Source: Candidatus Rokuibacteriota bacterium (lineage in GTDB: Bacteria; Methylomirabilota; Methylomirabilia; Rokubacteriales; CSP1-6). From it: a stretch of 64,000 nt of DNA. The DNA lies in NCBI GenBank assembly GCA_016866775.1, contig VGLJ01000012.1, positions 1-64,000 of the forward strand, given 5' to 3'. Within the stretch, counting starts at the first letter, position 1. Every line of letters begins with the position of its first letter. Shown here piece after piece: positions 1,236-58,546 of the stretch. The position numbers were made by a program, and so were the translations under genes. Under the pieces are notes generated by a model. The model was given only the letters and a program-made list of their open reading frames with translations. It searched no databases and was not told where the DNA came from.

Positions 1236-1245
1236 ATGATACCGT
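1236..1245. promoter_or_regulatory. symmetric divergent -10 element
   Basis: ATGATACCGT reads as TATCAT on the minus strand and TACCGT on the plus strand, with the two hexamers sharing the central TA. The plus hexamer ends 7 nt before ATG 1253, which has no Shine-Dalgarno, so that transcript is probably leaderless. The minus hexamer ends 13 nt before ATG 1222. Confidence 0.5.
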
Positions 1246-1252
1246 GCCGGGC

Positions 1253-2161
1253 ATGACACGGCCAATCGAGAGTGTCGTGGTGGTGGGCTACGGCGTCATG
1301 GGCGAAGGGATCGTGCGGTCGTTCGCCGACGCCGGCTTCCGAGTGACCGTCGTGAGCCGCCGCGCGCGCTCGCTCGCGGGAGTGCCGCCGGGCGTGACGG
1401 TCACCGCGGAGCTGCCGGCATCGCCGTCGGACCTCGTGATCGAGACGATCGTCGAGGAGGCCGGCGCGAAGCGCGCCGTCTACAAGCAGGTCGAAGCGGT
1501 GTACCCGCCGGAGACGATCATCGGCACCAACACGTCGGGATTGCCGCTCGAGACCCTCGCCGCGGGGCTCGCGCACCCCGAACGCTTCGTCGGCGTCCAC
1601 TGGTTCCATCCGGCCGACGTGTTCCCGATGGTGGAAGTCGTCGCGGGCCCGGCCGCGCCGGCGGCGATCCTCGAGCGCGTGGCCACGGCGCTCGAGCGCA
1701 CGGGCAAGGAGCCGATCGTCCTCACGCGGCCCGTCGTCGGCTACGTCATCAACCGGCTCCAGCACACGATCCTGCACGAGGCGTATCACATGATCGACGC
1801 CGGCATCGCGAGCGCGGCCACCATCGACAAGGTCGCCCGCTGGCTGCTCGGGCCGCGAATGTGCGTGACGGGACTGGTCGAGCAGAAGGACATCGCCGGC
1901 CTGACGATCCACGCGTTCGCGCAGCGGTCGATCGTGCCGACGCTGCATCACACCGCGACGCCGAACGCGATGCTGCAATCGATGGTCGCGCGCGGCGACA
2001 CGGGCCTCGAGGCGGGGCGCGGCTTCTTCGACTGGGCCGGGCTCGACGCGGCGGCCGTCCGGAGGGACGCGAGCGCGCGGCTGCGGGCGTTGCTCGACAC
2101 GCTCGAGCGCCTGCGCCCGGCCGCCGCGCCGCGAAGCCGCGCAAGGGAGGAGCTGCCATGA
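1253..2161 (+). CDS. 3-hydroxyacyl-CoA dehydrogenase family protein
   Basis: A 302-residue protein with an N-terminal Rossmann fold (GYGVMGEGI, residues 12-20) and the family block NTSGLPLETLA followed by VGVHWFHPADVFPMVEVV, where the catalytic His lies. A helical C-terminal domain ends with the typical GRGFFDW segment. It should oxidise a 3-hydroxyacyl-CoA, or a related 3-hydroxy acid, with NAD. The substrate cannot be read from sequence. The start ATG lies 7 nt after a -10-like TACCGT and no Shine-Dalgarno is visible. The stop overlaps the next start (ATGA), so it forms an operon with the hydrolase downstream. Confidence 0.85.
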   Translation: MTRPIESVVVVGYGVMGEGIVRSFADAGFRVTVVSRRARSLAGVPPGVTVTAELPASPSDLVIETIVEEAGAKRAVYKQVEAVYPPETIIGTNTSGLPLETLAAGLAHPERFVGVHWFHPADVFPMVEVVAGPAAPAAILERVATALERTGKEPIVLTRPVVGYVINRLQHTILHEAYHMIDAGIASAATIDKVARWLLGPRMCVTGLVEQKDIAGLTIHAFAQRSIVPTLHHTATPNAMLQSMVARGDTGLEAGRGFFDWAGLDAAAVRRDASARLRALLDTLERLRPAAAPRSRAREELP

Positions 2162-2970
2162 ACGTCGTCGTGGCCGCGGGACTCCGCCTCGCCTACCGCG
2201 AGCTCGGCAGCGGACCGCCGGTCCTGCTGCTCCACGGCTGGCCGACGTCGTCGTTCCTCTGGCGGGAGGTCATGCCGCCGATCGCGCGCGTCAACCGCGT
2301 CGTGGCCGTCGACCTGCCGGGCTTCGGCGCGTCCGACAAGCCCGCCGGCGTGCGCTACACCTTCGAGTTCTTCGAGCGCGCCATCGAGGCGTTCCTCACG
2401 CAGCTCGGCATCGAGCAGGTCGGGCTCGCGGTCCACGATCTCGGCGGGCCGATCGGCTTGCACTGGATGCTCGAGCACCCCGCGCGCGTGACGAAGCTCG
2501 CGCTCCTCAACACGCTCGTCTACCCCGAGTTCTCGGAAGCCACGAAGGAGTTCGTGCGGGCGTGCGCGTCACCGGAGCTCCGCGAGCAGATCACCGGCCC
2601 GGCCGGCCTGGAGACGATCGTCCGCGACGGGCTCGCCGATCCCGCGAAGCTCGACCCCGCGGTCCTCGCCGCGGTGCAAGCGCCGTTCGGGACGCCGGAG
2701 GCGCGGCGTGCGCTGGCCGATGCCGGCATCGGCGTGTCGCGGAAGGGCTTCGTGCAGATCGCGCGCTGGCTCCCGACGCTGCGCATTCCGGTGCGGATCG
2801 TGTACGGCGCGCGCGATCGCGTCCTGCCCGACATCGGCGAGACGATGGCGCGCGTGAAGCACGATCTCCCGCACGCGGAGGTCACGATCCTGCCGAACTG
2901 CGGCCACTTCCTGCAGGAGGAGGCGCCCGCGGACGTCGGCGCGCTGCTGGCGCGCTTCTTCGCCGGCTGA
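2158..2970 (+). CDS. alpha/beta hydrolase, haloalkane/haloacetate dehalogenase-like
   Basis: A 270-residue alpha/beta hydrolase. The oxyanion-hole motif HGWPTSS is near residue 26. The nucleophile elbow VHDLGG puts Asp near residue 94, where esterases have Ser; this is the dehalogenase type. The rest of the triad is Asp in GARDRVLPD (about 220) and His in NCGHFLQEE (about 250). An Asp nucleophile is typical of haloalkane and haloacetate dehalogenases and of epoxide hydrolases, so dehalogenation is likely but not proven. The ATG overlaps the preceding stop by 4 bp, indicating translational coupling with the hydroxyacyl-CoA dehydrogenase. Confidence 0.8.
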   Translation: MNVVVAAGLRLAYRELGSGPPVLLLHGWPTSSFLWREVMPPIARVNRVVAVDLPGFGASDKPAGVRYTFEFFERAIEAFLTQLGIEQVGLAVHDLGGPIGLHWMLEHPARVTKLALLNTLVYPEFSEATKEFVRACASPELREQITGPAGLETIVRDGLADPAKLDPAVLAAVQAPFGTPEARRALADAGIGVSRKGFVQIARWLPTLRIPVRIVYGARDRVLPDIGETMARVKHDLPHAEVTILPNCGHFLQEEAPADVGALLARFFAG

Positions 2971-2982
2971 GCGCGGCGTCCG

Positions 2983-3336
2983 TCAGGCGCGCGTGACGTG
3001 CGCGGCCACGCAGATCCAGCGCCCGCCGCGGCGCGCCCACGTGTCGGTGTAGCGTCCCGCGCCGGCGCCGCCGTCGGGCTTCGTGTACGTCGTGCGCGCG
3101 TGGATGAGCGCGACGTCGCCGAGGATCCGGATCCGCACGTCCTCGATGGCGAGGCTCTTGATCGGACACGGCGGCGCGATCTGCTTGAGGAAGCCCGCGC
3201 GGTCGACGAGCGAGCCGTCGGGGTTGCTGTTCAGGAAATCGTCGGACAGATTCGCGTCGAACCAGCGCACGTCCGACTCCTGCACCGAGCGGATGTAGTG
3301 CGCGTTGAGCTGCTCCAGCGTCTTCAGATCGTCCAT
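2983..3336 (-). CDS. SnoaL/NTF2-like protein (DUF4440-type)
   Basis: A 117-residue protein with the cone-shaped NTF2-like pattern: an N-terminal helix (LEQLNAHYIRSVQESDVRWFDANLSDDF), then strands ending in YTDTWARRGGRWICVAAHVTRA. Such proteins bind small hydrophobic ligands or act as isomerase- or hydrolase-like enzymes; no catalytic residues are decisive here. It is convergent with the dehalogenase-like gene, separated by 12 bp. Confidence 0.75.
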   Translation of the reverse strand: MDDLKTLEQLNAHYIRSVQESDVRWFDANLSDDFLNSNPDGSLVDRAGFLKQIAPPCPIKSLAIEDVRIRILGDVALIHARTTYTKPDGGAGAGRYTDTWARRGGRWICVAAHVTRA

Positions 3337-3352
3337 GACGGCCTCCCCCGCA

Positions 3353-3520
3353 TCATCTGGCGGACGACTCGACGCGCAGCACGCCCTGCGCGCGCCGCGT
3401 ACGCTCGCTCTGGATCACCTCGCCGAACTCCTCGACGCTCTTGAACCGCCGGTACGTGCCGGTCAGCTCGCCCGTCGGCACCCGATCATCGCGTAGCGCG
3501 ACCCAGAGCCGGTCGCGCGT
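3353..3520 (-). pseudogene. coding-like remnant downstream of a TAG stop
   Basis: No ATG, GTG or TTG opens this stretch, yet the frame that continues past the TAG at 3521-3523 stays open for about 55 codons. It has protein-like composition (DRLWVALRDDRVPTGELTG, then RRFKSVEEFGEVI) and ends at TGA 3353-3355. It is either the severed C-terminus of a gene or the readthrough extension of the upstream reading frame. No family was recognised. Confidence 0.35.
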
Positions 3521-3799
3521 CTAACGGCGACAGGACACCCAGATCTCCAGCGTCCGCTCCCGCACGCCGGGCACCGTGAGGAGCGTATACCGTGCCGCCG
3601 GTCGCTCGGCTCCCGTGACGTGCGTCCAGACCGCGTCGAGCACCCGATCGCCCGGGCTCCCCGGCGCGGCGCCGTCCGTGAGGAGACCGACGTGCTCGCG
3701 ACGCGCGAGGAACTCGCGGGCGCGCGCCTCGCCGACGCTGCGGACCTCCTCGGAAAGGATCACGAATGCGCCCGCGCTCGAGCCCGGCGACGCGACCAT
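3521..3799 (-). CDS. hypothetical protein, probably a gene fragment
   Basis: The frame from ATG 3799 gives 92 residues with protein-like composition (GAFVILSEEVRSVGEARAREF, then RYTLLTVPGVRERTLEIWV). It probably belongs with the open frame just upstream (3760-4320) through a frameshift near 3800, because coding character moves from one frame to the other there. No family was recognised. Codon use is GC-rich like its neighbours. Confidence 0.35.
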   Translation of the reverse strand: MVASPGSSAGAFVILSEEVRSVGEARAREFLARREHVGLLTDGAAPGSPGDRVLDAVWTHVTGAERPAARYTLLTVPGVRERTLEIWVSCRR

Positions 3800-4320
3800 C
3801 CGCCTCCGGTGGCGCGTGGATGCCGGATCTCGCTCGTGCGCCCGGTGCCCGGCGCGACGTGTCGCGGCAGATGAGTGAGCGCGGCCTCGTCCGCGATCTG
3901 CCATCCCTCTTCCCCGACGTGCGCGGCGAAGAGCGCCGCCGGCGCGGCGCCGCGCCGCCGGCTGCCCGGCACCGTGCGGGGGAAGAACACCCAACCGGGC
4001 CCGAACCCTCCGGTCATCAGCCGAATGCGCGTGCCGACGAGACGCTCGACGTCGCGCGCGAGCTGCTCCGTGCCGTGAACGACGCTAGGGGTCAGCGGAT
4101 TGCTCGTGAAGAACCGCGCACCTTCCCCGGATTCCACCCGGTAGACGCGACGATCCCAGTCGAGCGTCGCGCCGACGAGGCGCACGCGGCTCTCGCCGCG
4201 CCGGGTGAGCAGGTCCGGCGCGGTCACGACGTCCGCGTAGCGAATCGGGGTCAGGCCGAACCATCGAGCGAGCGCGATGGCCAGGAGCACCAGCGCGAAC
4301 ACGGCCGTGAGCCGCGCCAC
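3760..4320 (-). CDS. hypothetical membrane-anchored protein
   Basis: GTG 4320 overlaps the stop of the upstream gene. The first 20 residues are a hydrophobic anchor (LTAVFALVLLAIALARWFGL), followed by a soluble domain with an LTRRGESRVRLVGATLDWDRRVYRV segment containing alternating strands. Coding quality is good to about residue 165, then falls to Arg-rich sequence around a 21-nt repeat at 3803-3823, where the true frame probably shifts into the 3521-3799 reading. Function is unknown. Confidence 0.45.
   Translation of the reverse strand: MARLTAVFALVLLAIALARWFGLTPIRYADVVTAPDLLTRRGESRVRLVGATLDWDRRVYRVESGEGARFFTSNPLTPSVVHGTEQLARDVERLVGTRIRLMTGGFGPGWVFFPRTVPGSRRRGAAPAALFAAHVGEEGWQIADEAALTHLPRHVAPGTGRTSEIRHPRATGGGWSRRRARARAHS
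3803..3823. repeat. 21-nt direct repeat, copy 1
   Basis: The 21 nt here are identical to 4621-4641. In the minus-strand sense both encode IHAPPE in one frame. Both copies lie in adjacent unrecognised genes, near places where the coding frame changes. Confidence 0.6.
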
Positions 4321-5086
4321 TACGGCGGACCGTACGGACTGTCGGCATAGTCGGCGCGCAGGCGCGTCTTCTCTTCACCATCCGGCAGGACGTGAAGCGC
4401 GTCGTTCCAGCCGCTCTCGAGCGCAATGCGAACGAACGCCAGGCGCGTCTCCGCGCCGAAGCCGGCCGCGAGGCCGAACGCGCACGCGCGGAGCTGGGCG
4501 GCGACGAGCTCATCGTCCGGCGCCGTGCCGCCGTACGAATGCTCGTCGTCGCGATCGACAGGCAGCGGACCATCGGCAGGATCGCGCCGTCGGGCAGCGC
4601 GCTCGACGGCGCGCGAACCACCTCCGGTGGCGCGTGGATGCTCCGATAGTCCCGCCATCGGGGATCGGATGGCGGAGGCGCCGGCGCGTCGCGCGGCACC
4701 ACGAGACGATCCTCGGCCCGCACGTAGCGCGGCCGCCCGGTCGTCGCTTCGCGCGCCGCGCGCCACGCGGCCCAGACGGCCTTCCGCGCGTCGTAGCGGC
4801 GGAGCGCCGGCCGGGCGCGCTCCAGCAGCCCGCTCGCCTCGGCGAGCAGCCCGTCCGTGTCGAGCGCCGCGCCGTCGCGGTCCCGCCGCGCGAGGCGCTC
4901 GGCGATGAACGCGTCCATCGTCTCGGAGCGCTCGACGTACCTGCGCGCGCCGTCGAGCCCGAGATCGATCACGTCGAGGAGCCACGCGATCTTCGACGCG
5001 GAGGGCGGATCGACCTGGAGGCGTTCGCCGAGTCGCGTGCGCCGCTCTGCCCCTTCGCGCGCCAGCTTCTCGCGGGCGCTGGTCAC
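4320..5086 (-). pseudogene. hypothetical protein with internal frameshift
   Basis: GTG 5086 overlaps the stop of the LarA-like gene (GTGA). The first frame reads convincingly (KIAWLLDVIDLGLDGARRYV, then RAEDRLVVPRDAPAPPP and SALPDGAILPMVRC) to about 4572. Coding character then moves to another frame (PVDRDDEHSYGGTAPDDELV, then FGLAAGFGAETRLAFVRIAL) and runs to TAG 4320. If repaired, it would encode about 255 residues. No family was recognised. It follows the LarA-like gene with overlap, so the two are probably co-transcribed. The frameshift may be an indel in the assembly. Confidence 0.5.
4621..4641. repeat. 21-nt direct repeat, copy 2
   Basis: Identical over 21 nt to 3803-3823 and in the same orientation, about 820 bp away. 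It could be local gene duplication, or a short dispersed element. Confidence 0.6.
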
Positions 5087-7061: not shown

Positions 7062-7125
7062 GGAGCGGAGCGTAGGCCCCGCGGCATGGCGCGGTCAATG
7101 TCTCGAAACTGATACGATCGCTGCC

Positions 7126-8505: not shown

Positions 8506-8509
8506 GCCG

Positions 8510-10895: not shown

Positions 10896-10905
10896 ACTAT
10901 ACTAT
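10896..10905. promoter_or_regulatory. symmetric divergent -10 element
   Basis: ACTATACTAT gives TATAGT leftward and TACTAT rightward sharing the central TA; TATACT at 10898 is a second plus-strand option. The element is exactly 28 nt from each start codon (10867 and 10934), and both genes have Shine-Dalgarno sequences, so both transcripts have short leaders. Confidence 0.55.
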
Positions 10906-10933: not shown

Positions 10934-12001
10934 ATGGGGATTCCCGCAACCATGCTCGCGACGGTGCTCGTCGCGCCGCACCGATTCGAGCTGCAGGAGC
11001 GGCCGGTGCCCGAGCCCGGCGAGGAAGACGTGCTCGTGCGCGTGAGGGCCTGCGGCATCTGAGGGACGGATCTGAAAATCATCCACCAGGGCATGCCCCA
11101 GATGCCGCCCTACGGCGAGTTCATCTTCGGGCATGAGTACGCGGGCGACATCGTCGCCGTGGGCAAGACGGTGGATGAGTTTCAGGTCGGCGACCGGGTG
11201 GTCGTCGAAGCGCACATGGGCTGCCGTCGCTGCGAGAACTGCATCCGCGGGCAGTACACCGCCTGCCTGAACTACGGCAACCGCGCGCGCGGTCACCGCG
11301 CGAACGGCTTCACCACGAACGGCGGCCTCGCCGAGTACGCCGTGAACCACGTCAACACGCTCTACCGCATCCCCGCCGGCGTCTCCTATGAGGAGGCGAC
11401 GGTGGTGATGACCTCCGGCAGCCCGCTCTTCGGTCTGGAGAACGCGGGCGGCTACTTCGCGGGCGAGACCGTCGCCGTGCTCGGGCCGGGTCCGATCGGC
11501 CTCATGGCGATCCAGCTCGTGCGGGCGCTCGGCGCCACCCGCGTGATCCTCACGGGCACGCGCGAGTCACGCTTGCGCATCGGCCGCCGGCTCGGCGCGG
11601 ACGTCGTCGTCAACAGCCGCGAGAAGGATCCGGTCGCGGCCGTGATGGAGGCGACGCAGGGCAAGGGCGCCGATCTCGTGATCGACTGCGCGGGCGGCGA
11701 CGAGACGTTCGATCAGTCGATCAAGATGTCGAAGCCGGGCGGCAAGGTGCTGCTCGTCGCGTTCTATCACGGCCCGGTCACCGCGGACATCTCCCATGCG
11801 GTGCGACGCAACGTCACGATCTACACGGAGCGTGGTGAAGGCGGGACGAGTGTCGGACGCGCGCTCGCGCTGCTCGCGGCCGGCCGGCTCACCGCCAAGC
11901 CCTTGATCACGCACCAGTTCCCCCTGCGCCAGGTCCACGACGCGATCGACACGCTGGAGCAGCGGACCGGCGATCCACTCAAGGTGGTGCTCATCCCATG
12001 A
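10934..12001 (+). CDS. zinc-dependent MDR alcohol dehydrogenase with in-frame TGA at the catalytic Cys codon
   Basis: The start ATG follows AAAGGAG by 5-6 nt. Codon 43 is TGA (11060-11062) inside the motif CGI-x-GTD, where the family has Cys as catalytic-zinc ligand; the frame then continues intact to 12001. Reading through gives 355 residues, normal for the family. Other features are whole: GHEYAG (second zinc ligand), the structural-zinc set C-x2-C-x2-C-x7-C in GCRRCENCIRGQYTAC, and the NAD-binding LGPGPIGLMAIQL. Selenocysteine is possible, as is a simple TGC/TGT-to-TGA mutation or sequence error. Without readthrough the protein is dead. The stop overlaps the next gene (ATGA). Confidence 0.75.
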
Positions 12002-31417: not shown

Positions 31418-31424
31418 TAGGCTA
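31418..31424. promoter_or_regulatory. overlapping divergent -10 element
   Basis: TAGGCTA reads TAGGCT on the plus strand and TAGCCT on the minus strand. It lies 48 nt from the start of the binding-protein operon and 51 nt from the CoA transferase start, both of which have Shine-Dalgarno sequences. Confidence 0.4.
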
Positions 31425-42763: not shown

Positions 42764-44125
42764 TCATCCTTTCGACGTGATCGAGCGGGCGGTCTCACGC
42801 GCGGCAGCGGCAGCGCGCTCCGCGAACTGGCGACAGAGCCCGGTGTATTGCGCGGGATCGAGCAGCGCGTCCACCTGCGCGGGCGAGAGCGTCGCGCTGA
42901 CGTGCGCGTCCTCGGCGAGGAGGTCGCGGAACGGGCGCGACGCGGTGACCGAGGCCTGCGCGGCGTCGTAGATCGCGTCGTGCGCGCGCTGGCGGCCGAT
43001 CTGCTTGCCCAGCTCGAGCATGAGCGCCTCGGCCATGATCAGGCCGCCGGAGAGATCGAGGTTCTCGCGCATGCGCTCGGGGAAGACGTGCAGCCCGTCG
43101 AACAGCGCGATCATCCGCTGCAGCATGTCGCCGGTGAGCTCGCACGCCTGCACCACCGCGCGGCCCATCATGATGCTCGTCGTCCGGTCCGCTTCGTGCT
43201 CGGTCTGCATCGCCTCGAGCGCGAGCGGCACCATCGCGCGGATCTGCGCGCCGGCCGCGATGATGTCCTGCGAGAGCTTCGGGTTCCGCTTCTGCGGCAT
43301 CGTGCTGCTGCCGACGGTGCCGGGCGGCACCGGCTCCTCCACCTCGCCGAACTCCTGCTTCATGAGCGTGTAGATCTCGCGCCCGACCTTGCTGCACGTG
43401 GACGCGAGCATCCCGAGGAGCAGCACGTACTCCGCCTGGTGATCGCCGATCGTGCGCGCGGGCACGGGCATGGGCCGCATGCCGAGCGCCGCGGCCATCT
43501 TCTCCTGCGTCGCGAGCCCCGCTTCACCGAGCGAGGCGAGCGTGCCGGCGCCGCCGCCGAGCATCGCGACGAACACGCGCCCCTCGCAGCCGCGTAGACG
43601 CTCCACGTGGCGGCCCAGCTCGTCGATCCACACGGCGACCTTGTATCCGAAGGTGGCCGGCACCGCGTGCTGGCCGTGCGTGCGCCCCGGCAGCAGCATG
43701 TCCTTCGTGCGCTCGGCGAGACCGGCCAGCGTGACCAGCAGCGTGGCGAGCTGGCGCAGGAAGATCGCGTGCGCCTTCCGCACCTGGAGGAGCTGGCCCG
43801 TCTGCGTGATGTTCTGCGTCGTGGCGCCCCAGTGCACGTAGCCGCCCGCGTCGCCGTCGCACGCCTTGTCGAGCGCCCAGACGACGGGCACGATCGGATG
43901 GCCGGTCTTCGCGAGTCCGGCGCGGATGGCGTCGAGATCGAGAAACTTCAGATGCGCCTTGCGCCGGATCTCCTCCGCGGCGTGCTTGGGAATGATGCCG
44001 AGCCCGGCCTGCGCGTCCGCGAGCGCGGCCTCGACGTCGAGCCACGACTGGAAGCGCGCGTGCTCGGTGAAGAGCGCGCGGATGCCGGGATCGTCGATCC
44101 GGAGGGAGGTCGGCTCTTCAAGCAT
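42764..44125 (-). CDS. adenylosuccinate lyase / 3-carboxymuconate cycloisomerase superfamily protein
   Basis: A 453-residue fumarase/aspartase-superfamily enzyme: HWGATTQNITQTGQLLQ, GRTHGQHAVPATFGYKVAVW and the signature loop GSSTMPQKRNPKLSQDI with the catalytic Ser. The superfamily eliminates fumarate or opens and closes lactones. Its place between an amidohydrolase and a molybdenum hydroxylase argues for a catabolic lyase and not purine biosynthesis (inference). It overlaps the amidohydrolase gene by 8 bp. Confidence 0.85.
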   Translation of the reverse strand: MLEEPTSLRIDDPGIRALFTEHARFQSWLDVEAALADAQAGLGIIPKHAAEEIRRKAHLKFLDLDAIRAGLAKTGHPIVPVVWALDKACDGDAGGYVHWGATTQNITQTGQLLQVRKAHAIFLRQLATLLVTLAGLAERTKDMLLPGRTHGQHAVPATFGYKVAVWIDELGRHVERLRGCEGRVFVAMLGGGAGTLASLGEAGLATQEKMAAALGMRPMPVPARTIGDHQAEYVLLLGMLASTCSKVGREIYTLMKQEFGEVEEPVPPGTVGSSTMPQKRNPKLSQDIIAAGAQIRAMVPLALEAMQTEHEADRTTSIMMGRAVVQACELTGDMLQRMIALFDGLHVFPERMRENLDLSGGLIMAEALMLELGKQIGRQRAHDAIYDAAQASVTASRPFRDLLAEDAHVSATLSPAQVDALLDPAQYTGLCRQFAERAAAAARETARSITSKG

Positions 44126-45260
44126 GGGCGGTCAGCCTCGGGACGTCGAAACGGTAGACGCGCGCGGTGTTGGCGCCGACGATCTTCGCCTGCTCGTCCG
44201 CGGGCACTCCCGCGAGGATCTCGCTCAGGATCTTCCGCGACTGCGGAAACGTCGACTCGCTGTGTGGATAGTCGGAGCCCCACATCATGGTGTCGACGCC
44301 GATCACGTCGCGCAGCCGGATGCCGATCGCGTCTTCCTGGAAGCTCAGCACGATGTTCCGGTGGAAGAAGTCGCTCGGCCGCATCTCGCCCTTGAAGCGA
44401 TAGATCGCCTCTTCGGTCCGCTCGCGGTACGTGTAGTCCATCGTGTCGAGCAGGTGCGGCACCCACGAGAGCTCGAACTCCACGATGGCGACGACGAGAC
44501 GCGGATAGCGCTCGAAGACGCCGGAGAAGATCAGGTCGCACATCGACGTCGCGGGTCCGAAGGCTTTCGTGGCGCGGCTGCTCGCATCGCGCAGCGTCTG
44601 CCCGGGCGCGCCGCGAATCCGGCCCTGGCGGCGCGTCGCGGTGTGCAGGCTCAGCGGCATCTCGAGCGCTTCGGCCGTGGCCCAGAAGCGCTCGTACTCC
44701 GGCTGGTCGTAACGGCGCTCGTCGAGCGGCAATTCGGTGATCATCGCGCCCGCGAGGCCGAGGCGCGCGGCGCGCTCCAGCTCCTCGATGCCATCGCCGA
44801 CGTCGTCGAGGTTGACCATGGCGATGCCCTTGAGCCGGGACGGATCCGTGCGGCAGAACTCCGCGAGCCAGTCGTTGTACGCGCGGAACACGGCGGACAT
44901 CAGCGCCGAGTCCTTCAGGCGGAAGTAGAAGAGGCCCTGCGACGGGTAGAGCACCTCGCCCGCGACGCCGTCGAGCCGCATGTCCGCGAGGTGCTGCTCG
45001 GGATCGTAGCCGCCGCGCGGCACGTCCTCGAAGCGCCCGCGTCCCGAGATGGTCTCCGGCGCCTCGAACCGCGCGCCGGCGTTGGAGATGAGACCGATGC
45101 CGGACAGGACCTGGCCGGCTTCGACCACGATCTGGTCGGCGCCGTCGATACGCTGGATCCGCGGCGCGCGGGCGCGAAAGGCCTTGTCGATGCGGGTCGC
45201 CCAGAGATCGGGCGGCTCGAACACGTGCGAGTCGGAGGAGAGGATCAGGCCCGGCAGCAT
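44118..45260 (-). CDS. amidohydrolase 2 family protein (ACMSD/resorcylate-decarboxylase type)
   Basis: About 380 residues. SSDSHVFEPPDLWATRIDKA is the N-terminal metal motif (D-x-H variant), with MPLSLHTATRR, VVAIVEFELSWVPHLLDTMD and MMWGSDYPHSESTFPQSRKI supplying further His and Asp. Relatives hydrolyse or decarboxylate cyclic acids. ATG 45260 is 7 nt after TACCCT (minus strand), suggesting leaderless initiation; ATG 45287 would collide with the divergent SDR start. First gene of a nine-gene operon. Confidence 0.85.
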   Translation of the reverse strand: MLPGLILSSDSHVFEPPDLWATRIDKAFRARAPRIQRIDGADQIVVEAGQVLSGIGLISNAGARFEAPETISGRGRFEDVPRGGYDPEQHLADMRLDGVAGEVLYPSQGLFYFRLKDSALMSAVFRAYNDWLAEFCRTDPSRLKGIAMVNLDDVGDGIEELERAARLGLAGAMITELPLDERRYDQPEYERFWATAEALEMPLSLHTATRRQGRIRGAPGQTLRDASSRATKAFGPATSMCDLIFSGVFERYPRLVVAIVEFELSWVPHLLDTMDYTYRERTEEAIYRFKGEMRPSDFFHRNIVLSFQEDAIGIRLRDVIGVDTMMWGSDYPHSESTFPQSRKILSEILAGVPADEQAKIVGANTARVYRFDVPRLTAHA

Positions 45261-45267: not shown

Positions 45268-45277
45268 AGGGTATCAT
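45268..45277. promoter_or_regulatory. symmetric divergent -10 element
   Basis: AGGGTATCAT gives TACCCT leftward (7 nt before ATG 45260) and TATCAT rightward (8 nt before ATG 45286), sharing the central TA. The whole intergenic gap is 25 bp and neither gene has a Shine-Dalgarno. Confidence 0.6.
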
Positions 45278-45285: not shown

Positions 45286-46044
45286 ATGGGAAAGCTCGAC
45301 GGCAAGGTGGCGCTGATCAGCGGCGGGTCGCGGGGCCAGGGCGCGGCGGAGGCGGAGACGTTCGTCAAGGAAGGCGCGAAGGTCGTGTTCGGCGACATTC
45401 GCGACGCGGACGGCCAGAAGGTCGAGGCCGCCATCCGCGCGAGCGGCGGAGCGGCGACGTACGTGCATCTCGACGTGACCAGCGAGGACGACTGGAAGCG
45501 CGCGGTGCAGACCGCGGTCGATCGCTACGGCAAGCTCGACGTCCTCGTCAACAACGCGGCGATCACGATCAAGCGCGTCCCGATCGAGGAGCGCACGGTC
45601 GCGGAGTGGGACCAGGTGATGGCGGTGAACGCGAAGGGTGTCTTCCTCGGCACCAAGCACGCCATCCCGGCCATGCGGCGCGCGGGCGGCGGATCGATCG
45701 TGAACATCTCGTCGATCGCCGGCATCGGCCAGTCGCTCATGCAGGAGCCGGCCTACGCGGCGAGCAAGGCCGCGGTCCGGATCTTCACGAAGGTGACGGC
45801 GGCGCAGCACGCGAAGGACGGAATCCGCTGCAACTCCGTGCACCCGGGGCCGGTCGACACGGAGATGTTCCACAACGCGTTCCCCGACAAGGACGTCATG
45901 GCGCGCCGGCTCGCGCGCATTCCCCTCGGCCGCATGGGGACGGTCTCGGAGATGGTGAGCCTCGTCCTCTATCTCGCGTCCGACGACTCCGCGTACATGA
46001 CCGGCAGCGAGATCCTGATCGACGGCGGCGCGATGGCCATGTAG
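45286..46044 (+). CDS. short-chain dehydrogenase/reductase
   Basis: A 252-residue SDR: GGSRGQGAAEAE cofactor loop, NNAA, catalytic Ser in NISSIAG, YAASK, and GSEILIDGG at the C-terminus. FGDIRDA suggests NAD preference. It is divergent from the molybdenum-hydroxylase operon, with a 25-bp shared promoter, so it may act in the same pathway. The substrate is unknown. Confidence 0.9.
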   Translation: MGKLDGKVALISGGSRGQGAAEAETFVKEGAKVVFGDIRDADGQKVEAAIRASGGAATYVHLDVTSEDDWKRAVQTAVDRYGKLDVLVNNAAITIKRVPIEERTVAEWDQVMAVNAKGVFLGTKHAIPAMRRAGGGSIVNISSIAGIGQSLMQEPAYAASKAAVRIFTKVTAAQHAKDGIRCNSVHPGPVDTEMFHNAFPDKDVMARRLARIPLGRMGTVSEMVSLVLYLASDDSAYMTGSEILIDGGAMAM

Positions 46045-46648: not shown

Positions 46649-47505
46649 AGCAGCGCGCGCGCGACCATCTCCATGCTCGACCGCGCCTCGCGCAGGTCGC
46701 TCGTGTTGCCGGAGACGATCAGCGTGTCGACGCCGAGCGCGGCGAACGCCTTCGCGTTGGCGGCGATCTCCGAAGGCTCCGCCCCGAGCGCGTAGCGTCC
46801 GGGGCGCGACGCCGCCAGCGAGAGCGCGATCGACACCGGGATCTTCGTGACGTCGCGTCCCGCGGCGTCGGCTTCCTCGCGCAACGCGGCCATGCCCTGC
46901 GCGAGCGCGTCGGGTGACAGGCCGAGCGGCTGCCAGCCGTCGCCGAGCCGCGCGGCCCGCCGGATCGCGGCGCGGCTGACGCCGCCGATCACGACCGGAA
47001 TGTCCTGACGCGGCTTCGGCGAGAACGTCATCCCGTCGAAGTGCGAGAACGTGCCCTCGAAGCTCGGATCCTCGTCGCGCCACAGCGTGCGCATCACCGC
47101 GATCGCCTCGTCCGTGAAGGCGCCGCGCACCTTGAACGGCGTGCCCAGCGCCTCCATCTCTTTCTGGATCGCGCCGACGCCGATGCCGAGGATGAGACGG
47201 CCGCCGCTCAGCACGTCGAGCGTCGCCGCCGTCTTCGCGAGCCGGATCGGGTTGTGGTACGGCAGCACGAGCACCGACGTGCCGAGACGGATACGCCGCG
47301 TGCGGGCCGCCACGAAGCTCAGCACCGTCAAGGGCTCGTAGTACGGGCGGCCGCCGATCCGGTCGAAGACGTGGCCGACATTGAAGACGTGGTCGTGCGC
47401 CCACACCGAATCGAAGCCGAGCGCCTCGGCCCGCACGCCGAGCTCGACGACGGCCTCCGGGTCTTCGAGGCCCCAGTTGTTGAGCAGCGAGATCCCGATC
47501 CGCAT
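46645..47505 (-). CDS. LLM-class flavin/F420-dependent oxidoreductase
   Basis: A 286-residue luciferase-like protein: GVRAEALGFDSVWAHDHVFN, RIRLGTSVLVLPYHNPIRLA, ATLDVLSGGRLILGIGVGAI and LGDGWQPLGLSPDAL, matching the group annotated as probable F420-dependent oxidoreductases. It is divergent, by 24 bp, from a histidine phosphatase gene, echoing the pair at 34629-36259. Confidence 0.87.
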   Translation of the reverse strand: MRIGISLLNNWGLEDPEAVVELGVRAEALGFDSVWAHDHVFNVGHVFDRIGGRPYYEPLTVLSFVAARTRRIRLGTSVLVLPYHNPIRLAKTAATLDVLSGGRLILGIGVGAIQKEMEALGTPFKVRGAFTDEAIAVMRTLWRDEDPSFEGTFSHFDGMTFSPKPRQDIPVVIGGVSRAAIRRAARLGDGWQPLGLSPDALAQGMAALREEADAAGRDVTKIPVSIALSLAASRPGRYALGAEPSEIAANAKAFAALGVDTLIVSGNTSDLREARSSMEMVARALL

Positions 47506-47516: not shown

Positions 47517-47523
47517 TATCGTA
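47517..47523. promoter_or_regulatory. overlapping divergent -10 element
   Basis: TATCGTA reads TATCGT on the plus strand, ending 7 nt before GTG 47530, and TACGAT on the minus strand, ending 12 nt before ATG 47505. It is the only AT-containing core in a 24-bp gap and neither gene has a Shine-Dalgarno. Confidence 0.5.
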
Positions 47524-47529: not shown

Positions 47530-48135
47530 GTGATCTACCTCATCCGTCACGGCGAGACTCCGGGCAATGCCGCGCGCATCGTGCAACGACCTGAGATTCC
47601 GCTCTCGGCGCGTGGCGAGGCGCAGGCCGAGCGGCTCGCGCGCCGCCTCGCGAGTGCTCCGATCGCCGCGATCCTCTCGAGCGATCTGAGGCGCGCGGCG
47701 ATGACCGCCGAGCCTCTCGCGCGCGCGACCGGTACCGGCATCACGTTCGAGCCGCTGCTGCACGAGCGCAACTTCGGCGACATCCGCGGGACGGCGTACG
47801 CGGACCTCGGCCTGGATCCCTTCGATCCCGATTACGCGCCGCCGAACGGCGAGACGTGGCCCGTCTTCCACGCGCGCGTCGACCGCGCGTGGGCGCGGAT
47901 CCGCGAGATGGCGGCGGCCACGCGGGGTGATCTCGCCGTGGTCACGCACGGCCTCGTCTGCAAGTCGCTGGCGGGCCGGTATCTCGTGCTCCCCGACGGC
48001 GAAGGCGTCCCCGAGCGCTGGGAGAACTGTTCCGTGACGCTCGTCGAGGCGGACGCGCCGTGGCGCGTTCAGCTGCTCAACTGCTGCGCGCACCTCGACG
48101 GCCTCACGGCCACGCCGCCGGCCGGCATCGCGTGA
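47530..48135 (+). CDS. histidine phosphatase family protein
   Basis: A 201-residue protein: IYLIRHGETPGNAARIVQ nucleophile motif, ILSSDLRRAAMTAEPLA, LLHERNFGDIRG acid-base Glu, and VVTHGLVCKSL with the second His. It is a small-molecule phosphatase of unknown substrate. GTG 47530 lies 7 nt after the TATCGT hexamer and lacks a Shine-Dalgarno. Divergent partner of the luciferase-like gene. Confidence 0.88.
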   Translation: MIYLIRHGETPGNAARIVQRPEIPLSARGEAQAERLARRLASAPIAAILSSDLRRAAMTAEPLARATGTGITFEPLLHERNFGDIRGTAYADLGLDPFDPDYAPPNGETWPVFHARVDRAWARIREMAAATRGDLAVVTHGLVCKSLAGRYLVLPDGEGVPERWENCSVTLVEADAPWRVQLLNCCAHLDGLTATPPAGIA

Positions 48136-52304: not shown

Positions 52305-52370
52305 GCGAAGCGGCACGGCTTCGCCGGGCCGCGGAGCGTGGGGGGCTCGGGGGGCGCCCGGAGCCCCCCA
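52305..52370 (+). repeat. two-hairpin dispersed repeat, copy C
   Basis: First hairpin arms GCGAAGC/GCTTCGC (52305-52311 and 52318-52324), linker GGAGCGT, second hairpin arms GGGGGGCTC/GAGCCCCCC (52340-52348 and 52361-52369). The linker and the G-run hairpin match copies A and B; the first hairpin has an unrelated stem sequence of similar shape. It occupies the gap between convergent genes. Confidence 0.7.
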
Positions 52371-52371
52371 A

Positions 52372-53379: not shown

Positions 53380-53386
53380 CGCCGCC

Positions 53387-53935: not shown

Positions 53936-53965
53936 GACGGGCTCCTTTCCGGCGGTCAATGGGCG

Positions 53966-53972
53966 TACCCTA
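53966..53972. promoter_or_regulatory. overlapping divergent -10 element
   Basis: TACCCTA reads TACCCT rightward and TAGGGT leftward. Both flanking genes have Shine-Dalgarno sequences 22-31 nt away, consistent with short leaders. Confidence 0.45.
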
Positions 53973-53993
53973 CTCCACCGGGAGGGCGAGCGC

Positions 53994-54395
53994 ATGGCCA
54001 TTCAGCTCGACCACGTCATCGTTCCGTCGCACGACCGGCTCGCGGGCGCGAAGTTCCTCGCGGAGCTGCTCGACGTGCCGTGGGCGGAGTCGCAGGGCAG
54101 CTTCACGCCCGTGTACGTCAACGAGAACCTCACGCTCGACTTCGCCGATCGCGAGCGCTTCGAAGGCCACCATTTCTGCTTCCGCGTGAGCGACGAGCAG
54201 TTCGACGCGATCCTCGGCCGCATCCAGGCGCGGAACGTGCAGTACCGGAGCCGCCCGCGCGGCGAGACCGACATGCAGATCAACCGGCGGCTCGGCGGCA
54301 AGAACCTCTACTGGGAGGACGCCGACAGCCACCTCTGGGAGATCCTGACGATCAGCTACGCGCGGCCCGAGTCGGCCTCGCTCAGCGCGGTGTAG
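53994..54395 (+). CDS. VOC family (glyoxalase/dioxygenase fold) protein
   Basis: A 133-residue protein with a VOC module (IQLDHVIVPSHDRLAGAKFL, FEGHHFCFRVSDEQFDAILG, NLYWEDADSHLWEILTISY) including the metal-ligand His near the start and Glu near the end. Members bind a divalent metal and catalyse isomerisation or dioxygenation, or give drug resistance. The ATG follows GGGAGGG. Convergent with the cupin gene, with no gap. Confidence 0.83.
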   Translation: MAIQLDHVIVPSHDRLAGAKFLAELLDVPWAESQGSFTPVYVNENLTLDFADRERFEGHHFCFRVSDEQFDAILGRIQARNVQYRSRPRGETDMQINRRLGGKNLYWEDADSHLWEILTISYARPESASLSAV

Positions 54396-54872
54396 CTAAC
54401 CCTCCGCACGGAGGATCTTGCCGCCGGCCTCCACCGACTTCGCGTCGATGAGGATCACCGCGAGCACGCACGGCGCCGTGCCGCGGTTGATCCAGTTGTG
54501 GATCGTCCCGCGCTGGACCATCACGTCGCCCGCCTTCAGGTGGACGACGGTGTCGTCCAGCTCCATGTCGATCTCGCCGGACATGCAGACGATGTAGTCG
54601 ATCGAGTCGGTGCGGTGGTTGCGCGGCGCGAGCCCCGGCGCGAACTCGAGGATCCGGAAGATCGTGCCGTTCGGAATGGTCGTGCCGACCTTGCGCAGTC
54701 CGGCGTCCTCGCTGCCGTCGTTGTCGGCCGGAAACCCTTCCGTCGTCCAGACGTTGCACACCGTCGCGCCGGGCCGGCCCTCGTGGAGATGCTTCGCGAC
54801 CTCGTCGATCTTGACCACGGCCTTGCCGTTCGCGTCGTGCCCCGTGATCACCCGTCGCACCTTCAGTGCCAT
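54396..54872 (-). CDS. cupin domain-containing protein
   Basis: A 158-residue single-cupin protein: FAPGLAPRNHRTDSIDYIVC, MSGEIDMELDDTVVHLKAGD and VMVQRGTIHNWINRGTAPC. Only part of the usual His-x-His...Glu set is present (NHRTDSIDY), so metal binding is uncertain. GGGAGG precedes the ATG. Confidence 0.83.
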   Translation of the reverse strand: MALKVRRVITGHDANGKAVVKIDEVAKHLHEGRPGATVCNVWTTEGFPADNDGSEDAGLRKVGTTIPNGTIFRILEFAPGLAPRNHRTDSIDYIVCMSGEIDMELDDTVVHLKAGDVMVQRGTIHNWINRGTAPCVLAVILIDAKSVEAGGKILRAEG

Positions 54873-54895
54873 GTGGTCTCCCTCCCGAGAATCCA

Positions 54896-54905
54896 ATCCT
54901 AGTAT
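54896..54905. promoter_or_regulatory. symmetric divergent -10 element
   Basis: ATCCTAGTAT gives TAGGAT leftward and TAGTAT rightward sharing the central TA. Distances to the start codons are 23 nt (54872) and 25 nt (54931); both genes have Shine-Dalgarno sequences. Confidence 0.55.
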
Positions 54906-54930
54906 GCTGGCGGCGGCGAAGGAGGCGGGC

Positions 54931-55161
54931 ATGGGTTGGGTGATCGCCGAGTTCCCCGAGACACGCGAGATCCTCGTCGACGACAAGCCGCAGGGTCCCA
55001 ATCGCTGGCCGAACGGAGAATACCGCACCATCATCATCGACGACGGCGACCACACGTTCCGTCTCGGCCCGCCGCCCGACGGCACTCCGGCCGCGCAGAA
55101 GCTCGTCGTCGAGAAGACGAGCGTCCTCGCGCCCCTCCACGTCGTCTTCACGAAAGTCTAG
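54931..55161 (+). CDS. small hypothetical protein
   Basis: A 76-residue protein (VIAEFPETREILVDDKPQGP, IIDDGDHTFRLGPPP) with a strand pattern that faintly recalls PEGA-type domains; no confident family. AAGGAGG lies 5 nt before ATG 54931, so the longer frame from 54904 is rejected. It ends 1 bp before the patatin gene, so they are probably co-transcribed. Confidence 0.7.
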   Translation: MGWVIAEFPETREILVDDKPQGPNRWPNGEYRTIIIDDGDHTFRLGPPPDGTPAAQKLVVEKTSVLAPLHVVFTKV

Positions 55162-55162
55162 C

Positions 55163-56638
55163 GTGCGCGCGAGCGCGGTCGTCGCCGTGGCGCTGCTCCT
55201 CGCCGGCTGCGCGACGCCGCGGGTGAACAACAAGCTCGCGACGTTCGACGGCACGAGCGGCTACCGCTACGACACGCTCTCGAAGGACGGCACCGGCGAC
55301 GACCTGTTCGTGATCCTCGCGTTCTCGGGCGGCGGCACGCGCGCCGCCGCGTTCTCCTACGGCGTCATGGAAGCGCTGCGCGATGCGCGGCACACGACCA
55401 ACCGGCCGTTGCTCGACGACGTCGACGTCATCTCCTCCGTCTCGGGCGGAAGCTTCACCGCGGCGTACGACGCGCTGTTCCGGGACGCGATGTTCACCGA
55501 CCAGGGACGCGAGGTCTATCTCCACGAGAAGATCCACCCGCAAGATCAGCTCGTGCGGCGCGCGCTCTGGCCGGCCTCGTGGTTCAAGCTGCTGTCGCGC
55601 GACTACGATCGCATCAACCTCGCGGCCGACCTCTACGACGAGACCATCTTCGAGGGCAAGACGTTCGCGGCGCTCATGGGCAAGAAGCCGTACCTCATCC
55701 TCAACGCGACCGACATGTCGCTCGGGCAGCGGTTCGAGTTCACGCAGGACCAGTTCGACCTGCTGTGCTCGGATCTGTCGTCCGTCAAGGTCGCGAGCGG
55801 CGTGGCGGCGTCGTCGGCGTTTCCCGGCCTCCTGAGTCCGCTGACGCTCGAGAGCTTCGCGGCGGAGGGCTGCAGCTACAGGGAGCCGCTGTGGCTCACG
55901 AACGCGAAGTCACCCGACAATCCCGCGCGGCGATGGAAGCGCGGGCTCGATGCCGCGTCGTACCAGGACGAGAAGGCGGATCGCCGGTTCATCCACCTCC
56001 TCGACGGCGGCCTCGCGGACAACATCGGGCTGCGCGGGCCGTACGTCGCGCTCACGAGCAACGACAGCGGCTGGGGCGTCATCCAGAAGATCAACCAGGG
56101 CGTGATCAGCCGCGTGGTCGTGGTCACCGCCAACGCGAAGACGAAACACAAGACCGCCTGGGACCAGCGCCGCGACGCGCCGGGCCTGCTGTCCGTGCTG
56201 GGCTTCGTCACCAGCGGTCCCATGGACAACTACTCGTTCGACAGCGTGCAGCTCGTCACCGACTACTTCGACCGCCTGCGCGAGTCGTTCCAGGACTTCA
56301 CGGCGTGCAAGACCCTGCTCGAGGCTCGGTGCCCCGGCGCCACGCTGCCCGGCCTTGCCCGGCCGGCCGACTTCCACGCGATCGAGATTTCGTTCGAAGG
56401 CTTCCGCGGCGCGGACGATCGCGTCCGCCGGTGCCTGGAGGAGCTGCCCACGACGTTCAAGCTCAGCCGCGATCAGGTCGAGCTGCTGCGCCGCGCGGCG
56501 TACGTCCTCGTCACGACATCGGCGTCGTTCAACGCCGCGATGAAGGCGATCGACGCGCGGTGGACGCCGCGCGACGCGGCGATCGATCCGGCGCTGGTCG
56601 CGCGCGCGTGCGCCGCTACGACGTCCGGAACGCGTTGA
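55163..56638 (+). CDS. patatin-like phospholipase, lipoprotein
   Basis: A 491-residue lipoprotein with lipobox LLLAGC. FSGGGTRAAAFSYGVMEAL is the oxyanion loop, ISSVSGGSFTAAY the nucleophile elbow with Ser and LLDGGLADNIGLRGP the catalytic Asp of the Ser-Asp dyad. It should hydrolyse phospholipids or other acyl esters at the envelope. GTG start. The 3-prime end overlaps the convergent AhpD-like gene by 23 bp. Confidence 0.9.
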   Translation: MRASAVVAVALLLAGCATPRVNNKLATFDGTSGYRYDTLSKDGTGDDLFVILAFSGGGTRAAAFSYGVMEALRDARHTTNRPLLDDVDVISSVSGGSFTAAYDALFRDAMFTDQGREVYLHEKIHPQDQLVRRALWPASWFKLLSRDYDRINLAADLYDETIFEGKTFAALMGKKPYLILNATDMSLGQRFEFTQDQFDLLCSDLSSVKVASGVAASSAFPGLLSPLTLESFAAEGCSYREPLWLTNAKSPDNPARRWKRGLDAASYQDEKADRRFIHLLDGGLADNIGLRGPYVALTSNDSGWGVIQKINQGVISRVVVVTANAKTKHKTAWDQRRDAPGLLSVLGFVTSGPMDNYSFDSVQLVTDYFDRLRESFQDFTACKTLLEARCPGATLPGLARPADFHAIEISFEGFRGADDRVRRCLEELPTTFKLSRDQVELLRRAAYVLVTTSASFNAAMKAIDARWTPRDAAIDPALVARACAATTSGTR

Positions 56639-56924
56639 CGGCGGTCACGAGCGCCGGCGTGCCCCCGAAGAGATAAGCGACCTCGACAGCCTCGTTGATC
56701 TCCGCCTCCGACGCGCCGGCGGCCCGCGCCCGGTTGGCGATGGTCGTCACGCCGTCGGGATGCGCGAGCAGCGCGTCGACGATCATCGTCATCAGGATCT
56801 TGTACTTGGCGGGGATGGCGCCGTCGGCGAGGATGCGCTCGCGCTGCGCCAGGTAGGACTTCGCGAACTCGGGATCGCGCTGCTGCAGCGACTGGATCCA
56901 CGGCGGCAGGGTCGGCTGGGCCAT
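56616..56924 (-). CDS. carboxymuconolactone decarboxylase / AhpD-fold small protein
   Basis: A 102-residue helical protein (YKILMTMIVDALLAHPDGVT, ANRARAAGASEAEINEAVEV, AYLFGGTPALVTAVNAF) with the CMD-family core but no Cys pair. It probably forms oligomers; function is unknown. Divergent from the SDR at 56982. Confidence 0.82.
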   Translation of the reverse strand: MAQPTLPPWIQSLQQRDPEFAKSYLAQRERILADGAIPAKYKILMTMIVDALLAHPDGVTTIANRARAAGASEAEINEAVEVAYLFGGTPALVTAVNAFRTS

Positions 56925-56947
56925 GTGGTTGCCTCCTTTGGCCCGGA

Positions 56948-56957
56948 AGGGTATCAG
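56948..56957. promoter_or_regulatory. near-symmetric divergent -10 element
   Basis: AGGGTATCAG gives TACCCT leftward and TATCAG rightward (last base off-consensus), 23 and 24 nt from the two start codons. Confidence 0.4.
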
Positions 56958-56981
56958 TAGGACGCCCGCAAGGAGGACGCG

Positions 56982-57746
56982 ATGATCGATCCGGCATTCA
57001 GCCTCGAGAAGAAGGTCGCCCTGGTGGTCGGCGCCGCGAACGGGATCGGACGGGCGACGTCGCTCGCGTTCGCCGCGGCCGGAGCGGCGGTGGTGTGCGC
57101 CGACATCGAGGACGCGAAGCCCACGGTGGCCGGCATCGAGAAGGGCGGCGGCCACGCGATGGCCGTGCATCTCGACGTCACCGACGGCGGAAGCTGCCGC
57201 GGCGCGGTCGCGGCCGCGGTCGAGCGGTTCGGCGGCCTCGACGTGCTGATGTACGGCGCGGCCGACAGCGACATGGCGGCCAAGGTCCCCGACATCGACG
57301 ACGCCGTGTGGGACCGCGTGATCCGGATCAACCTCACCGGCGCGTTCCTGATGACGAAGGCGGCGATCCCGGCGATGATCGCGCGCGGCGGCGGCAGCAT
57401 CATCCTGATCGCGTCGCAGCTCGGCCGTGTGGCGCGTCCGGGCCGCGCCGCGTACTGCGCGACCAAGGGCGCGCTGGTGCAGTTCGCGAAGGTCCTCGCG
57501 ACCGATCACGCGGCGGACGGGATTCGCGCGAACACCTTGTCGCCCGGCGCGATCGAGACACGACGCATGCTGCGCCAGTGGAAGAGCATGGAGGACGCGC
57601 GGAAGGGCATGGGGCCGCTGCACCTGCTGGGCCGCATCGGCCGCCCGGAGGAGATCGCGCGCGCGGCCGTCTACCTCGCGAGCGACGCGTCGTCGTTCAT
57701 GACCGGCAGCGACCTGCTGATCGACGGCGGATACACGGCGACCTGA
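56982..57746 (+). CDS. short-chain dehydrogenase/reductase
   Basis: A 254-residue SDR: GAANGIGRATS cofactor loop, VVCADIEDA (Asp favours NAD), Ser in IASQLGRV, YCATKGA with Tyr-Lys, and GSDLLIDGG. The NNAG motif is replaced by MYGAADS. AAGGAGG precedes the ATG. Its end overlaps the convergent PAP2 gene by 76 bp. Confidence 0.9.
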   Translation: MIDPAFSLEKKVALVVGAANGIGRATSLAFAAAGAAVVCADIEDAKPTVAGIEKGGGHAMAVHLDVTDGGSCRGAVAAAVERFGGLDVLMYGAADSDMAAKVPDIDDAVWDRVIRINLTGAFLMTKAAIPAMIARGGGSIILIASQLGRVARPGRAAYCATKGALVQFAKVLATDHAADGIRANTLSPGAIETRRMLRQWKSMEDARKGMGPLHLLGRIGRPEEIARAAVYLASDASSFMTGSDLLIDGGYTAT

Positions 57747-58528
57747 CGGACCCGCGCGAACGCCGCACGCCGGAGCATCGCGAAGCCGGCATCGAGCGGG
57801 CCGCCGAGCGTGAACGCGCCGAGCCACACCGTGCCCACGGCGACGCCGGCGATGACGTCGGACAGCCAGTGCACGCCGAGCACCATCCGCGAGGCGCCGG
57901 ACAGCACCGCGAGCACGAAGGCGAGCGCGTACAGCACCGCGCGTGACCGGACCGTCGCTGACCGCGCGAGGATGTGGACCAGAAGCCCCGCCGCGACGAG
58001 GGTGACCAGCGTGTGGCCGCTCGGAAAGCCGTAGCGGTCGAGCGAGCCGGGGCGTGGAACCGCGAACACGGCCTTGAGCAATCCTCCGAGCGCCCACGCG
58101 CTGATGGTGCCGGCGGCGAACAGCAGGGCATCGCGCGAACGTCGGGTGCCGGCGAGGCAGAGCGTCGCCGCGAGAACGCCGGTGGCGAGCCCGATGCCCG
58201 TCAGGCCGCTGATCGCCGTGGCCGCGCTCCGAATCGACGGATGCGCGGCGGCGCTCGTCACCCAGTCGCGGGCGAGGACGTCGAGCACCGAGATGAGCTC
58301 GGCCGGCTCGCGTTCGAGCACGTCCTCGGCGACGACGAACAGCGTCGCGAGACCGAGCGCGATGAACAAGGCCTGCGTGGCGCCCGGGCGTCCCCACTGT
58401 CCCGCGAGAACACGCGCACCCGAGGATCGGCGGTCGACCAGAGGCCAGAACCGCAGCACGAGCAGGACCCAGAAGAACGCGGTACAGGCCGTGTCCAGCG
58501 TCTCGTACCAGGGCGGCAGCGCGAGCAT
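57671..58528 (-). CDS. PAP2 family membrane phosphatase
   Basis: A 285-residue polytopic protein with the three PAP2 motifs: KAVFAVPRP, PSGHTLV and SRMVLGVHWLSDV. It would remove phosphate from a lipid phosphate such as undecaprenyl pyrophosphate or phosphatidate. ATG 58528 follows TACAGT by 8 nt without a Shine-Dalgarno. The C-terminal 25 residues overlap the SDR gene on the other strand; the true end is therefore slightly uncertain only if a frameshift exists. Confidence 0.87.
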   Translation of the reverse strand: MLALPPWYETLDTACTAFFWVLLVLRFWPLVDRRSSGARVLAGQWGRPGATQALFIALGLATLFVVAEDVLEREPAELISVLDVLARDWVTSAAAHPSIRSAATAISGLTGIGLATGVLAATLCLAGTRRSRDALLFAAGTISAWALGGLLKAVFAVPRPGSLDRYGFPSGHTLVTLVAAGLLVHILARSATVRSRAVLYALAFVLAVLSGASRMVLGVHWLSDVIAGVAVGTVWLGAFTLGGPLDAGFAMLRRAAFARVRQVAVYPPSISRSLPVMNDDASLAR

Positions 58529-58536
58529 CGTGTCTG

Positions 58537-58546
58537 ACTGTACTCT
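58537..58546. promoter_or_regulatory. symmetric divergent -10 element
   Basis: ACTGTACTCT gives TACAGT leftward (8 nt before ATG 58528) and TACTCT rightward (9 nt before ATG 58556), sharing the central TA, in a 27-bp gap. Confidence 0.6.

Follow-up and report, generated by a model that had tools for sequence, protein, structure and literature searches.

Symmetric -10-like elements between divergent genes of a Candidatus Rokuibacteriota genome as candidate two-way promoters, many of them flanked by leaderless-type starts

The founding paper on bacterial bidirectional promoters is said to be that of Warman, Forrest, Grainger and others in 2021. In the passages of PMC12825309 and PMC10268837 (the latter on Salmonella plasmids) that we consulted, promoters with a shared -10 element read from both strands are an established class, in which transcription starts lie most commonly 18 bp apart, spacings of 10 and 23 bp are also common, and one polymerase acts at a time. 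Leaderless genes with a -10 element beside the start codon are likewise known, from passages on Mycobacterium tuberculosis (PMC3898074), on bacteria at large (PMC3160421) and on Deinococcus-Thermus (PMC12340547). The two subjects are treated apart in these passages: the word 'leaderless' has no occurrence in the searched text of PMC12825309 or PMC10268837, and a text search of PMC12340547 and PMC3160421 returned zero occurrences of 'divergent', 'bidirectional', 'head-to-head' and 'palindrom'. Here we describe a set of short symmetric elements that would join them. They were noticed in the first 64,000 bases of contig C12, from a Candidatus Rokuibacteriota genome (this 64-kb stretch is hereafter the window), in gaps between divergent genes, where a -10-like hexamer TAnnnT faces each way. 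In the form AnnnTAnnnT the two putative boxes have the central TA step in common, and in the heptamer TAnnnTA they overlap further.

The assembly comprises 5.13 Mb in 159 contigs (completeness 97.5%) and has a GC content of about 70%. Gaps were analyzed in a sample of 1.26 of the 5.13 Mb with a purpose-written gene caller that lets alternative starts compete, which returned 1226 genes and 164 divergent pairs. All gaps of 10-300 bp (140 divergent, 390 co-directional and 56 convergent) were compared with 200 dinucleotide shuffles. AnnnTAnnnT was present in 33 of the 140 divergent gaps, against a shuffle mean of 7.2 and a maximum of 14, and was not enriched in co-directional (7/390, 6.0 expected) or convergent gaps (0/56, 0.8 expected). 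For an independent test we left out the window, which was the source of the hypothesis, and used 300 shuffles: the element was found in 31 of 130 divergent gaps (mean 6.7, maximum 17), and any of four shared geometries in 44 (34%; mean 11.2, maximum 21). The enrichment over shuffled sequence on which an earlier, sequence-only reading of the window had staked its proposal is thus borne out for AnnnTAnnnT. That reading had also held that most divergent pairs share such an element, which is true of the window (8/12) yet not of the called gaps outside it, and about one third of called divergent pairs carry a shared element.

The two boxes keep to a few preferred geometries. When each TAnnnT in divergent gaps was paired with each box on the opposite strand, 35 pairs fell at offset +4 (shared TA; 7.5 expected), 8 at offset +2 (AnTATAnT; 0.24 expected) and 16 at offset -1 (TAnnnTA; 6.4 expected), with counts of 0-3 at the offsets between and beside these peaks, as a bidirectional promoter would have it. 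Among the 164 divergent pairs, the fullest 5-bp bins of gap length below 400 bp were those of 20-24 bp (9 pairs) and 25-29 bp (12 pairs), and where only 20-28 bp separate the start codons, the element takes up most of the space.

A second line of evidence does not depend on gene calls. The pattern CAT-N5..9-AnnnTAnnnT-N5..9-ATG, that is, two outward-facing start codons around one shared box, has 25 matches in the whole genome, compared with 4 for an AT centre, 5 for arms shifted outward by one base and 2 for the reversed string. At 10 of 11 matches examined, open reading frames (ORFs) of at least 85 codons start exactly at both ATGs, and one match was spurious. The heptamer version of the pattern has 7 matches, compared with 0 for the reversed control only. 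The reversed string proved too lax a control, since it also removes the CAT..ATG frame (27 matches in 21 genomes of the same family, G001-G021, where the two same-shape controls gave 81 and 89), and counts set against it alone were not taken as proof. The symmetric elements are genuine, at frequencies well beyond chance.

We read the element as a sigma-70-type promoter that works both ways and consists of the -10 box alone, and assign this shared -10, the best reading of the sequence, a probability of about 0.85. On each strand only T-12, A-11 and T-7 of the -10 element would be fixed. RNA polymerase would bind in either orientation, a single molecule at once, and transcription would begin some 7 nt past T-7; this box-to-start step implies starts about 23 bp apart for AnnnTAnnnT and 18 bp apart for TAnnnTA. 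The spacing of about 18 bp or less put forward by the sequence-only reading therefore suits the heptamer and not AnnnTAnnnT. A start codon 6-10 nt from the box would place the beginning of the mRNA at or beside that codon, giving a leaderless transcript, and a start codon farther away would leave a leader that bears a Shine-Dalgarno (SD) site, so that a pair could be leaderless both ways, leaderless on one side and leadered on the other, or leadered both ways. That polymerase binds, uses both start sites and serves one direction to the exclusion of the other, and that the short gaps have no further promoter, is inferred.

The strongest internal test of the shared-box reading is the distribution of SD sites. 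If a shared box sets both transcript starts, gene starts at 6-15 nt have no room for an SD site and those farther away need one. We scored GGAG, GAGG or AGGA as an SD site in gaps no longer than 300 bp; where a gap holds two geometries it is counted more than once. Among sides at 6-10 nt from a shared box, 2 of 47 had an SD site, and among those at 11-15 nt none of 11 (2/58 together), compared with 30 of 39 sides at 16-59 nt; over all genes, 442 of 1222 starts have one. The same division is seen within mixed pairs, at C2:115870 (19 nt with an SD site, 9 nt without) and at C1:122865 (21 nt with, 9 nt without). TAnnnT boxes have a distance peak ending 6-9 nt ahead of start codons, co-directional genes included, which is the recognized signature of leaderless mRNAs, and pairs with such a box on both sides and no SD site are found. 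Leaderless translation would account for distances of 7-9 nt, and those of 22-31 nt go with SD-led genes; this is the unifying feature that the sequence-only reading overlooked. That reading is supported in so far as symmetric -10-like elements gather in divergent gaps, and not in gaps of the other types, at positions compatible with a -10 for both genes, be it at leaderless distance or with room for an SD site.

No -35 element accompanies the boxes: the best TTGACA-like match 15-19 bp upstream averages 2.43 of 6 positions, compared with 2.60 in shuffles, and leaderless-type starts carry no information at -35 positions. The extra A four bases upstream of the TA, which makes a box two-way, is present at 27 of 70 divergent leaderless-type starts compared with 4 of 48 co-directional ones.

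As in the known bidirectional promoters, the putative -10 elements here are shared or overlapping, and AnnnTAnnnT corresponds by arithmetic to their 23-bp geometry. Unlike the promoters in the passages of PMC12825309 and PMC10268837, among which 18 bp is commonest, the 23-bp geometry leads in this genome (35 vs 16 in gaps, 25 vs 7 genome-wide), and many of the pairs are mRNA/mRNA pairs with 20-28 bp between start codons. With the leaderless genes described elsewhere they share a TAnnnT a few nucleotides before the start codon and the absence of an SD site. In M. tuberculosis, closely juxtaposed divergent promoters are common, and Rv1129c/Rv1130, a divergent pair leaderless on both sides according to a legend, is the nearest precedent (PMC3898074); the passages of that paper we drew on do not state that its two genes share one -10. 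Single overlapping divergent promoters are described in passages on M. tuberculosis lysG/lysE (PMC5648196) and on the EcoRV restriction-modification genes (PMC5333194), in which, as here, the polymerase sites of two divergent genes overlap. Both are, by those passages, regulator-controlled single cases, and the 108-bp lysG/lysE gap has an inverted repeat, whereas here many unrelated enzyme pairs are involved, with no regulator among 17 proteins scanned. Among the titles and abstract openings searched, a scope that takes in few subscription papers, none described doubly leaderless pairs sharing one -10 genome-wide. Two-way promoters, including the 23-bp class, are thus known, and what is new is their density here together with doubly leaderless pairs with gaps of 20-28 bp. 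Such a pair would amount to a minimal two-way promoter, about 25 bp that should yield two leaderless mRNAs, in a genome where the orientation taken by the polymerase could tie together the expression of many enzyme pairs or play one partner off against the other.

Several observations weigh against the two-way promoter. The heptamer alone is weakly enriched, being present in 16 of 140 divergent gaps (6.2 expected, shuffle maximum 15), and it is raised in co-directional gaps as well (11/390, 4.5 expected); it is the least secure part of the finding. SD sites are present on just 3 of 22 sides at 60-300 nt from an element, so a portion of the elements, chiefly those in wide gaps, must have arisen by chance or have wrongly bounded gene starts. 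On sides less than 6 nt from the box, 2 of 5 have an SD site. The gene starts rest on our own caller, and some are misplaced into or past the element (C4:80503 and window position 54896); the shares of divergent gaps given above are probably low for this reason. Conversely, the positions of box and SD site can serve to correct start codons misplaced by automatic callers in such genomes. Among relatives, the pair at window position 45268 was not found: orthologues in three genomes (82-86% identity) lie beside different genes and are preceded by an SD-like sequence. In the 21 family genomes together the whole-genome pattern has 137 matches against 81 and 89 in the same-shape controls (about 1.5-1.7 fold), and a 354-kb sample of the family member G017 shows no clear excess of AnnnTAnnnT (4/32 gaps, 2.2 expected, maximum 7).

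Of the competing explanations, compaction alone survives best. Each gene would have its own leaderless promoter, a gap of about 25 bp would force the two boxes to overlap, and the shared TA would be a by-product. Consistent with this, 11 of the 15 doubly leaderless pairs have gaps of at most 28 bp and the boxes overlap in all 11; leaderlessness of the two sides is mildly associated overall (15 pairs, 9.75 expected; Fisher P 0.034) and unassociated in gaps above 40 bp (3 vs 2.7). Against compaction stand the gaps of 61-300 bp, in which there is room for two promoters and shared-TA boxes still number 17 against 4.7 expected, and the mixed leaderless/leadered pairs, which likewise have one shared box. 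Separate box pairs are also common in those wide gaps (26 at offsets 9-100, about 4.2 expected), and the excess of shared TA alongside them indicates that sharing is favoured, not compulsory, where room allows. We regard compaction as a plausible account, somewhat short of an even chance.

A bolder version of the two-way promoter, which we offer tentatively and consider doubtful, is that selection in this lineage has favoured the doubly leaderless shared-TA pair as a genome architecture, which would then be no by-product of compaction. Four fixed A/T bases would make up the entire control region of both genes, with no -35, SD site or regulator, and would oblige expression by one polymerase at a time. 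The shared-TA form would be preferred over the 18-bp form since the partner's C-9 A-8 reads as the TG of an extended -10 on the other strand. The counts behind this last part lend modest support: TG is mildly raised (14/48 co-directional leaderless boxes and 13/70 symmetric halves, compared with 109/1469 boxes overall), CA is found on 13 of 70 symmetric halves compared with 3 of 48 co-directional leaderless boxes, and TG stands on both sides in just 2 of 35 sites.

Operators of dimeric regulators are often palindromic and sited between divergent genes, and the dyad could in principle be such an operator and not a promoter. The lysG/lysE gap provides an example, by the passages of PMC5648196. 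In the present elements, however, the inner bases, which separate the fixed A, TA and T, are complementary in 33 of 105 cases, compared with 32.8 in column shuffles, and the flanks have no dyad, so that the symmetry does not continue through or beyond the fixed bases and the candidate was rejected. The 17 proteins scanned come from ten short-gap pairs, seven represented by both members and three by a single one; none of the 17 matched a regulator family and two matched nothing. The position relative to start codons and SD sites is that of a -10. We consider an operator very improbable. Chance or AT-rich intergenic composition is less probable still: the heptamer lies barely above its shuffle maximum and elements far from starts mostly lack an SD site (3/22), but AnnnTAnnnT in divergent gaps exceeded all 200 and all 300 shuffles with the other gap types unenriched, and the whole-genome pattern exceeded its same-shape controls (25 vs 4 and 5), which rules chance out for AnnnTAnnnT as a class and leaves individual sites uncertain.

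One candidate two-way promoter, that of queC, is kept among relatives. The gene was searched in 60 relatives and matched in 38, and the best 30 loci, our own included, were compared. A queuosine-precursor transporter gene lies upstream of queC on the opposite strand in 7 of the 30 loci, from four genera, and AnnnTAnnnT is present between the two genes in all seven, with differing spacing and inner bases. In the other 23 loci, where no transporter was found, AnnnTAnnnT occurs within 60 nt of queC in none. As a separate observation, QueC of our own genome (locus L084, G000:C5:57599-58285, minus strand) carries LSGGLGS. The 29 remaining queC loci carry LSGGxDS in the stretches shown, and the PP-loop aspartate is a glycine in ours, which may be an assembly error or mark an altered enzyme beside its transporter. 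The ABC partner of Fpg was not found in the other eight Fpg loci examined, although two of these eight (L211 and L214) have a heptamer or shared-TA box by eye. The divergent neighbour of a TIGR03617 protein is not kept, by eye, in two Rokubacteria-type relatives, and searching plasmid DNA with part of the 45268 pair gave nothing useful.

With respect to overall abundance, the 5-6 fold excess over same-shape controls, compared with 1.5-1.7 fold in the family, makes our genome stand out. For the 14 remaining family genomes the reversed string served as the sole control. In the same-class genome G045, AnnnTAnnnT is present in 3 of 8 divergent gaps (2.9 expected). We also considered Actinomycetota as a second group and rejected it as a whole, since 198 genomes show no enrichment (2762 matches, AT-centre control 3777). 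Restricted to the 114 genomes whose control count is at most 10, the totals are 506 and 466, and a 400-kb sample of G177 has the element in 4 of 51 gaps (2.0 expected, maximum 6). Nine of the 198 genomes (G259, G166, G164, G181, G139, G258, G075, G241 and G248) do stand out, each with 7 or more doubly leaderless shared-TA sites and with three times as many as the AT-centre control gives; G259 has 14 such sites with a control of 1. The doubly leaderless shared-TA architecture may thus have arisen more than once.

Within the window, all nine strings of the sequence-only reading are present: AnnnTAnnnT is exact at 1236, 10896, 45268, 54896 and 58537, TAnnnTA is exact at 31418, 47517 and 53966, and the string at 56948 is one base off, as had been said. 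The window has 12 divergent pairs (11 from the caller plus the pair at 58537), of which 8 carry an exact element, where about nine of twelve had been claimed. By the caller alone, an element falls in 3 of the 10 gaps of the window that measure 10-300 bp, because several starts are misplaced. We inspected the start codons individually, and the nearly equal distances to the two starts reported before (28/28, 23/25, 23/24, 7/8 and 8/9 nt) were matched. Of the gene pairs listed before, those at 10896, 45268, 54896, 58537, 47517 and 53966 are plausible on both sides, those at 1236 and 31418 have one uncertain side, and the element at 56948 is inexact.

Two of the six are predicted doubly leaderless AnnnTAnnnT pairs without SD sites. 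The putative shared -10 at 45268..45277 lies 7/8 nt from the start codons in a 25-bp gap, between a minus-strand gene at 44118..45260 (380 aa, no NCBIfam match) and a plus-strand gene for an SDR-family oxidoreductase at 45286..46044 (252 aa). The one at 58537..58546 lies 8/9 nt from the start codons, between a minus-strand gene at 57671..58528 (285 aa from the ATG at 58528), which our caller overlooked, and a plus-strand gene at 58556..59521 (321 aa). The heptamer at 47517..47523 is also without SD sites, at 12/7 nt from an ATG at 47505 (minus strand) and a GTG at 47530 (plus strand). SD-like sites stand on both sides of the remaining three candidate boxes: ACTATACTAT at 10896..10905, which includes AnnnTAnnnT, AnTATAnT and TAnnnTA and lies 28/28 nt from the starts, with a 42-aa ORF as the predicted plus-strand product; AnnnTAnnnT at 54896..54905 (23/25 nt); and TAnnnTA at 53966..53972 (31/22 nt).

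The three other sites are less regular. AnnnTAnnnT at 1236..1245 is leaderless-like for the plus-strand gene at 1253 (7 nt), and its minus-strand partner is uncertain, with a start 44 nt off, no SD site and a weak coding score. At the heptamer 31418..31424 the minus-strand gene is 49 nt off with an SD site, and the plus-strand start is uncertain. The near-miss at 56948..56958 has a minus-side box AnnnTA and a plus-side TAnnnnT; the start codons are 23/24 nt away, each preceded by an SD-like site.

Two further observations concern genes of the window. Between the 10896 box and the called gene at 11102, a 42-aa ORF at 10934-11062 (plus strand) with an SD-like site may represent a small gene that callers overlook. 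The 380-aa protein of the 45268 pair (44118-45260) has 47 matches at E<=0.001 in its own genome (46 besides itself), above all 36 relatives searched, the next being G017 with 37.

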